The notes beneath the pieces are model-generated. The model searched no databases, was not told where the DNA came from, and was given only the letters and a program-made list of their open reading frames with translations. Shown piece by piece: positions 54,797 through 55,381 of a DNA stretch of 64,000 nucleotides; the first letter of the stretch is position 1, and the number at the start of each line of letters is the position of its first letter. Location: the NCBI RefSeq assembly GCF_000576555.1, contig NZ_CP007145.1, positions 4,114,501-4,178,500 of the forward strand, in the 5' to 3' direction. The DNA is from Hymenobacter swuensis DY53. Its GTDB lineage: Bacteria > Bacteroidota > Bacteroidia > Cytophagales > Hymenobacteraceae. A program made the translations under genes and the position numbers.

Positions 54797-54828
54797 TTGC
54801 ATATCTCAAAAATACGCTGCTACCTTTG
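54797..54828 (+). promoter_or_regulatory. Promoter of the metY leader
   Basis: TTG at 54797-54799 and TACCTTTG at 54821-54828, the latter an exact TAnnTTTG, spaced by 21 bp. Transcription should begin near 54835, about 45 nt before the riboswitch. Confidence 0.75.
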
Positions 54829-54879
54829 CAACACCAACCCGGTACTCCTTCGTTAGCGACGAGGAAGTTTTCATAGGAT

Positions 54880-54965
54880 TTATACAGAAGTGGCGAGAGA
54901 ATAGGCTCCCTGACCCACTGGCAACCTTCGACCGCGCGAAAGGTGCCAATTCCTACCCGACCAGC
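54880..54965 (+). promoter_or_regulatory. SAM-I (S-box) riboswitch upstream of metY
   Basis: The conserved core is present in order: AGAAGTGGCGAGAGA, GGCTCCCTGACCCACTGGC, AACC, a short P3 stem (CCTTCGACCGCGCGAAAGG) and AGGTGCCAATTCCTACCCGA, which matches the SAM-I consensus in its Bacteroidota variant. It lies directly in the 5' leader of metY, whose product consumes O-acetylhomoserine in methionine synthesis. High SAM should favour termination before metY. The exact P1 boundaries are approximate. Confidence 0.88.
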
Positions 54966-54999
54966 CATTTGGCGGCGGGGCATATAACCCAGGAGTACC

Positions 55000-55161
55000 A
55001 TGCACAACGCCCCCACTTTCGCCCAGTTCGTCCCCACCGCTCCGGCTACCTTCGGGTCTGCCGCTTCGCCGTGGGGTTTCCGCGTTTCCCCAGTTGCCGC
55101 TCTGGCCACCTACCGAATGCGAATGCGTGGCTGTTGCAGCGCGTGTTGTTGCTGTTGCTAG
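55000..55161 (+). CDS. Putative cysteine-run leader peptide
   Basis: A 53-codon ORF starting at ATG 55000 whose final 14 residues are MRMRGCCSACCCCC; an internal ATG at 55117 would encode just that end. Seven of the last nine residues are cysteine. It sits between a SAM riboswitch and an intrinsic terminator upstream of metY, where a ribosome pausing at Cys codons could sense low charged tRNA-Cys. The stop codon lies at the base of a hairpin (55151-55181). No Shine-Dalgarno sequence is evident and a different frame gives a leucine-rich end, so translation is unproven. The idea follows attenuation by poly-Cys leader peptides described in actinobacteria. Confidence 0.5.
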   Translation: MHNAPTFAQFVPTAPATFGSAASPWGFRVSPVAALATYRMRMRGCCSACCCCC

Positions 55162-55200
55162 CCTGAGTCCGGCTACGCAGCCTCCCCTCCTCCTTTTTTT
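55151..55200 (+). promoter_or_regulatory. Hairpin over the cysteine codons, with U tract
   Basis: TAGCC (55159-55163) pairs with GGCTA (55171-55175), extended by GCTG/CAGC across an internal loop, and a run of seven T follows at 55194-55200. A second hairpin GGTGCCG/CGGCACC lies at 55219-55237. These could be alternative attenuator structures. Confidence 0.4.
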
Positions 55201-55300
55201 ATCCCGGCTCTGACCGGTGGTGCCGACTTCCGGCACCCGGCAGCCCCACCGCATTCTAACCGCCTTGCATCCAGCATTTTTCGGTGGTTTTGATGTGATT

Positions 55301-55325
55301 CCTGCCTCACTCAGGCAGGCTTTTT
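55301..55325 (+). terminator. Leader terminator before metY
   Basis: CCTGCCT (55301-55307) pairs with AGGCAGG (55313-55319) followed by CTTTTT. It lies 57 bp before the metY ATG, so it is inside the leader and not at the end of another gene. Confidence 0.7.
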
Positions 55326-55381
55326 CCAGCGGTTTGCGCTCCTTCTTCCGATATCCCAACGCCTTCTAAATCAGCCTCATC

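Follow-up and report, generated by a model that had tools for sequence, protein, structure and literature searches.

A SAM-I aptamer adjoining the start of a cysteine-run leader ORF before metY in Hymenobacter: a candidate serial two-input switch

In the metY leader of Hymenobacter, a SAM-I riboswitch aptamer is followed at nearly fixed spacing by a conserved short ORF that ends in a run of Cys codons, and the closing helix P1 of the aptamer reaches into the initiation region of this ORF. We lean toward reading this leader as a serial two-input switch that would be on only when SAM and the sulfur amino acids are both short. In this scheme, the transcript would start about 40 nt before the aptamer. 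When SAM is bound, P1 would be closed over the ribosome-binding region of the leader ORF, the leader would stay untranslated and metY would be off. When SAM is low, P1 would open and ribosomes would enter the leader ORF; with an ample supply of Cys-tRNA, and probably of Met-tRNA too, they would reach the stop codon and metY would still be off. When these tRNAs are scarce, the ribosomes would stall among the Met/Cys codons directly ahead of the stop codon, and the stall would lead to a downstream RNA form permitting the expression of metY, metX and hom.

The window, which is the whole stretch of 64,000 nucleotides of Hymenobacter swuensis DY53 that was analysed, contains the following parts of the leader and the genes behind it.

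54797..54828, plus strand: Bacteroidota-type promoter, assigned from the sequence (TTG at 54797-54799, 21 nt, then TACCTTTG at 54821-54828)
54877..54990, plus strand: SAM-I (S-box) aptamer (RF00162, 63.6 bits against a gathering score of 44.4)
54877-54884 paired with 54983-54990, plus strand: closing helix P1, with two mismatches in the window copy
54991..54995, plus strand: Shine-Dalgarno-like AGGAG of the leader ORF, immediately 3' of P1, assigned from the sequence
55000..55161, plus strand: leader ORF, starting with ATG, 53 aa (MHN...RMRMRGCCSACCCCC), seven Cys codons at its end, stop codon at 55159-55161
55114..55158, plus strand: Met/Cys codons R M R M R G C C S A C C C C C, the putative sensing codons
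55154..55181, plus strand: predicted hairpin whose 5' arm is formed by the last Cys codons and the stop codon, from folds
55181..55203, plus strand: C/U-rich, G-poor tract, a possible Rho loading site by composition
55301..55324, plus strand: intrinsic-terminator-like hairpin CCTGCCT-CACTC-AGGCAGG-CTTTTT, 57 nt 5' of metY
55382..56764, plus strand: metY, O-acetylhomoserine/O-acetylserine sulfhydrylase (TIGR01326, 678.5 bits, cut-off 495.1)
57018..58055, plus strand: metX, homoserine O-acetyltransferase (NF001209 (PRK00175), 335.3 bits, cut-off 331; 359.4 bits with TIGR01392, below its cut-off of 500)
58048..59313, plus strand: homoserine dehydrogenase (NF004976, 299 bits, cut-off 205), the open frame beginning upstream, at 57994

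A sequence-only reading of this DNA had named a SAM-I core in the metY leader and an ORF with seven Cys codons at its end, and both are present as claimed. The RF00162 match is full-length and lies above the Rfam gathering cut-off. Our own model, R1, scores 88.5 bits at 54877-54990 (locus L035), although this sequence was among those used to build it; R1 rests on a 14-pair partial structure from RNAalifold and serves for finding aptamers, not as structural proof. For the promoter at 54797-54828, we used what we take to be the Bacteroidota consensus. The corresponding pattern, TTG-N17-23-TANNTTTG, was present in 92/92 aptamer-bearing genus leaders against 0.3 expected, located 43-51 nt 5' of the aptamer, and in 15/37 aptamer-bearing leaders of the order against 0.5 expected. 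With this pattern before the aptamer and the ORF after it, the ORF is by position not leaderless. The closest named relatives of the window metY are those of Hymenobacter, and its subfamily, TIGR01326, is named O-acetylhomoserine aminocarboxypropyltransferase/cysteine synthase. Since this name holds both activities, SAM and Cys would both be sensible inputs.

The Cys run is conserved far beyond the window. A close metY was found in 114/120 genus genomes, from which we took 109 full leaders of 900 nt, leaving out G054 (contig end) and four others; the order sample comprised 43 metY leaders, one of them just 131 nt long. The aptamer was found in 130 of 152 metY leaders of the genus and order together. 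When the best ORF after the aptamer was required to have at least four Cys in its last 12 codons, a Cys-run ORF was found in 113 of these 130 leaders, against about 1.0 of 130 in dinucleotide shuffles of the same stretches. The genus contributed 88/92 and the order 25/38. These counts ignore kinship, and the leaders are not independent of one another. Fewer than four Cys were found in 17/130 aptamer-bearing leaders overall and in 13/38 outside the genus, where a third of the leaders thus have no Cys run. In other orders, the aptamer was found in 20 of the 40 metY leaders fetched, and 16 of those 20 had at least four Cys.

A further set of named genomes, the best 80 loci of a longer list with species overlapping the genus and order samples, had the aptamer in 72 of 80 metY loci. 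All 52 named Hymenobacter loci had the aptamer and 51 of them had at least four Cys; among the named loci of other genera, the aptamer was found in 20/28, and 17 of those 20 had at least three Cys and 13 at least four. The aptamer-bearing loci beyond the genus include Mucilaginibacter, Pedobacter (with three Cys at most), Daejeonella, one Cyclobacteriaceae genome and one Saprospiraceae genome. Outside Hymenobacter, the peptides share little beyond the start position and the end, as in ...HIFCATNCICCCCCCCCC and ...NNFYCCCCCCC. Loss of the Cys codons between close species had been set as what would speak against the idea of a leader peptide; the run is kept across the genus, and in several families it caps an otherwise unrelated peptide.

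Several deviating leaders were seen. In family f11 (L190 of G321, L194 of G226, L198 of G147 and L274 of G162), the metY aptamer is followed by an ORF of 13-16 codons with one or two Cys adjoining Met (MLYLQQCMSSGAY, MYYIRCCMPHAGR), which is perhaps a reduced form of the same Cys leader; several f11 leaders are among those counted as having no Cys run. The metY leader ORFs of L104 (G002), L115 (G056) and L118 (G017) have degenerate ends (RMRMCWGCWM, RMRMCWGCRM), and the cysH leaders of these genomes have six or seven Cys. In L391, L392, L393, L405 and L407 (Spirosoma and Cytophagaceae MAGs), metY had no R1 aptamer match, and a Cys-run ORF was not found in the stretch examined. An apparent joint loss of aptamer and Cys ORF in 17/109 genus leaders was rejected as an artefact of the 900-nt cut, judging from 12 named Hymenobacter loci in which 1,073-1,145 nt separate the end of the aptamer from metY and the Cys ORF directly follows the aptamer (12/12).

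The position of the ORF relative to the aptamer is nearly fixed. Among leaders with a Cys run, the ATG lies 7-9 nt 3' of the aptamer in 84/88 from the genus and 6-13 nt 3' of it in 24/26 from the order. When single mismatches and G-U pairs were allowed in P1, the outer end of its 3' strand was located 8-13 nt before the ATG in 83/88 genus leaders and 4-9 nt before it in 22/26 order leaders, so P1 reaches into the initiation region of the leader ORF. The 30S subunit needs about 20 nt 5' of the start codon. Considering this footprint, a closed P1 should exclude the 30S subunit from the leader start. The SAM and Cys inputs, which had been proposed as two layers of one leader, are both borne out in the form of an aptamer and a conserved Cys run, but with P1 lying on the ORF start they are probably not independent of each other. 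On the other hand, two points count against gating by P1: the window P1 has two mismatches, and most genus P1 helices end 8-13 nt before the ATG and leave AGGAG itself free. GAG at -7 to -5 is 87-95% conserved per position in the 88 genus leaders.

The aptamers themselves fall into two classes. Of 34 aptamer loci read in the genus, 28 belong to another class, with the P1 strand GATAAG, and six to the class found before metY, cysH and the permease described below. A terminator was present within 150 nt of the aptamer in 24/28 of the former and in 0/6 of the latter, indicating that the output of the metY/cysH/permease class should be something else. An ATG 5-7 nt after the aptamer is also found in 21/28 of the other class, with ORFs that vary in length and end; the proximity of a start codon alone therefore proves little.

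What follows the ORF bears on the two main alternatives. According to the first, the aptamer and the Cys leader are independent layers, each controlling, as in classical transcription attenuation, an intrinsic terminator further downstream. The window does contain the terminator-like hairpin at 55301-55324 that the earlier reading had described 57 nt before metY, and the hairpin at the stop codon might correspond to the 1:2 helix known from attenuators. However, the hairpin before metY is not a conserved part of the leader, because terminator-like sites between ORF and gene were not enriched over shuffles (21 of 88 genus leaders against 24 in shuffled sequences; 4 of 26 order leaders against 2.8), and neither a conserved antiterminator nor a conserved terminator was found in the metY leaders of the genus and order. 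Moreover, the ORF separates the aptamer from the terminator-like sites, and its start codon is held near P1. We consider this first alternative unlikely.

At the stop codon itself, the 88 genus leaders show a folding signal: the 45-nt window from -12 had a mean z of -1.57, the strongest of 15 offsets, and an uninterrupted helix of at least seven pairs ran through the stop codon in 24/88 leaders against 7.9 expected. RNAalifold, run on a MAFFT alignment of the stop-codon region of the 88 leaders, returned no structure, probably because the stop positions differ, and per-sequence folds with the anchored helix count were used instead. The hairpin found no support outside the genus. Behind the stop codon, the genus leaders have a C fraction of 0.59 and a G fraction of 0.09 at +20 to +29, and the C-rich peak begins at +10 to +29 in 67/88; a C-rich, G-poor tract was weak or not clear outside the genus. 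This pyrimidine-rich tract suggests Rho as a possible effector, in Hymenobacter only.

The second alternative keeps the inputs but has a translational output, the stall making the start site of the following gene accessible or blocking it, a mode reported for the poly-Cys ORFs of mycobacteria. Those ORFs are described as acting on downstream translation (PMC9031893), and a leader with no conserved terminator would agree with this. Yet the gap from ORF to metY exceeds 100 nt, and is mostly about 200, in nearly all leaders with a Cys run, and the leader is kept in the 12 named loci whose metY is about 1.1 kb downstream of the aptamer. In 11 of these 12 distant loci, one same-strand ORF of 219-232 codons stands between the leader and metY (L357, L373-L376, L378, L380, L383-L385 and L412; it is split in L377), and in L378 and L385, the two tested, this gene belongs to the AhpC/TSA (peroxiredoxin) family. 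Provided that metY remains the target in these loci, the leader acts on the transcript and not on the metY start site. With a whole gene between leader and metY in part of the genus, we favour control at the level of the transcript, perhaps by Rho, over control of metY initiation, and an output through the metY start site appears rather improbable to us.

Substitution patterns support translation of the ORF. Over 95 close and non-independent pairs, its pN/pS was 0.50 in frame, and the two shifted frames gave 0.80 and 0.97, which points to moderate purifying selection. The last 14 codons of the 88 genus ORFs hold 554 of their 588 Cys codons, with TGT used 321 times and TGC 267 times. Internal Met codons are also concentrated near the end: in the 88 genus ORFs, 162 lie within the final 20 codons, against 74 expected (1000 codon shuffles, maximum 99), and in 23 order ORFs 32 do so, against 16.5 expected (shuffle maximum 26). 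Given this clustering of Met with Cys, the peptide may sense Met as well as Cys. An RMR motif is present in 78/88 genus ORFs, and it could alternatively be kept for the RNA.

A third alternative is that the product of the ORF is itself functional, as a small Cys-rich protein for metal binding or redox, and that the ORF lies in the leader by coincidence. Moderate purifying selection and a peptide start that is recognisable within the genus would fit such a protein. Beyond the genus, however, conservation is largely confined to the Cys run, the position of the start codon and the location of the ORF, and terminal runs of up to nine consecutive Cys, together with the lack of an NCBIfam match for the window peptide and four relatives, better fit a leader read codon by codon, so that we regard a small protein as very improbable. 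Chance, that is, a functionless ORF in a GC-rich leader with TGY-rich repeats, can practically be dismissed, as we found no point in its favour and both the shuffle comparison (113/130 against about 1.0) and the use of both TGT and TGC speak against it.

Taken together, the serial switch draws its support from the frequency of the Cys run relative to shuffles, the start spacing, the position of P1, the pN/pS of 0.50, the Met/Cys clustering, an aptamer class that has no adjacent terminator, and the retention of the Cys ORF in the loci of about 1.1 kb. Against it count the lack of a conserved terminator or antiterminator, the Cys run missing in part of the leaders, and the confinement of the stop-codon hairpin and the C-rich tract to the genus.

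The same arrangement is found before other genes. The genome has four SAM-I aptamers, and three of them are followed by a short ORF with a Cys-rich end whose start codon lies 9 nt after the aptamer: those before metY, cysH (PAPS_reduct; ...QHGCCGLMGMCCCQG) and an amino-acid permease (AA_permease_2; ...MAAACCSPRCCS). The fourth aptamer, before metH (a gene named by eye), has no such ORF. Among the genus genomes, cysH was found in 81/120, and the best 30 matches in the genus were studied as leaders. By pattern, all 30 have the aptamer core and the TATAAA strand. A GTG follows TATAAA after 6-12 nt in 29 of the 30, and in L286 after 9 nt with a frame running to 67 codons; by raw count, three or more Cys are present in the last 14 codons of 26 of these 30 ORFs. 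The outer end of the P1 3' strand lies 2-8 nt before the GTG in 30/30. P1 comprises 9-13 pairs here, and such helices may be closed even without SAM. These cysH leaders start with GTG, and QHGCC is common to most of them. Accordingly, the arrangement is a class of leaders, before metY, cysH and the permease. The view of a single two-input metY leader is supported in its Cys input, to which Met, with codons clustered there too, may have to be added, and was too narrow in scope, given three of the four genome aptamers and the 30 cysH leaders. An aptamer with a Cys-bearing ORF was also observed before other genes in individual loci: L001 (cysH), L003 (permease), and L022, L256 and L262 (transporter-like by eye). 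A by-eye assignment of the L022 gene as ATP-grasp was dropped, as it had no Pfam match.

In Flavobacteriaceae, for which we take family f74, Met codons appear where the aptamer is missing. Among 30 metY loci, the best matches of 54 genomes, the aptamer lies upstream of metY in 20; L307, L330 and L332 have aptamer matches located downstream of metY. L312 was left out, as its contig begins 383 nt before metY, and nine aptamer-less loci were counted. When the most Met/Cys-rich short ORF within 700 nt was chosen by the same rule in both groups, at least three Met in the last 14 codons were found in 7/9 loci without the aptamer against 0/20 with it (raw counts), for example MSNNLSKAKNMMMNIMMMCMSMRMKCYCQNRM. 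Judged from sequence, these ORFs look like Met leader-peptide attenuators that replace the aptamer. The aptamer-less leaders L307, L310, L316, L325, L329, L330 and L332 have Met-rich, often Met/Cys-mixed short ORFs, and in L307 and L330 a terminator-like hairpin was seen by eye behind the ORF. We consider it evenly balanced whether a broader scheme holds, in which the start site of a ribosome-based sensor is the expression platform of a riboswitch. The resulting serial AND gate for sulfur assimilation would serve metY, cysH and the permease in a large part of Bacteroidota, and the SAM aptamer and Met codons would stand in for each other as sensors of the methionine branch.

SAM-I riboswitches usually act through a terminator or through the start site of the gene they control. 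Leaders of the metY class differ from the common form of RF00162, in which a terminator directly follows the aptamer: none of the six read has one, the leader ORF abuts P1, and the target gene lies far behind. The Salmonella mgtA leader combines Mg2+ sensing, the proline-rich mgtL ORF and Rho. Like it, the metY leader joins a metal or metabolite sensor with a codon-reading ORF, possibly with a Rho output, but the ligand, codons, phylum and arrangement differ, and mgtL is not known to be set against the closing helix of a riboswitch. In tnaC and the trp and his leader peptides, stalling in a short ORF decides the transcription of the operon, through Rho in tnaC; unlike the metY leader, they are not known to have a riboswitch before the ORF. 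Leader-peptide control is, to our knowledge, little described in Bacteroidota, and we know of no description of a SAM aptamer gating a Cys-run leader peptide. A limited search of the literature, Rfam and NCBIfam gave no account of a SAM riboswitch joined to a cysteine leader peptide in Bacteroidetes. The mycobacterial poly-Cys uORFs (Canestrari et al. 2020) have been described, in papers citing that work, as Cys-responsive attenuators (PMC9031893, PMC13236596). By these accounts, they resemble the ORFs described here in that a short ORF with contiguous Cys stands before other genes and Cys availability is sensed via ribosome speed; they are leaderless, whereas the metY leader has an aptamer before the ORF and on its start, with Met codons mixed in. 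Poly-Cys attenuation as such is thus already known from mycobacteria, and its coupling to a SAM aptamer would be new as far as our limited literature check reaches.

If the serial switch is correct, the role of a riboswitch would be to determine whether a codon-reading sensor behind it comes into play, and one RNA would combine two end products of sulfur assimilation in series. Cys/Met attenuation would then be widespread in Bacteroidota, which would offer a natural system for studying how aptamers and leader peptides replace each other in evolution. As a search rule, a SAM aptamer of the metY/cysH/permease class with an ATG or GTG within about 10 nt may reveal short translated ORFs that annotation has missed.

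Elsewhere in the window, an ORF of 863 codons on the minus strand (50808-53399) showed weak matches to an EreB-like esterase and to the start of SusC/RagA, both below curated cut-offs, and perhaps represents an unusual fusion.
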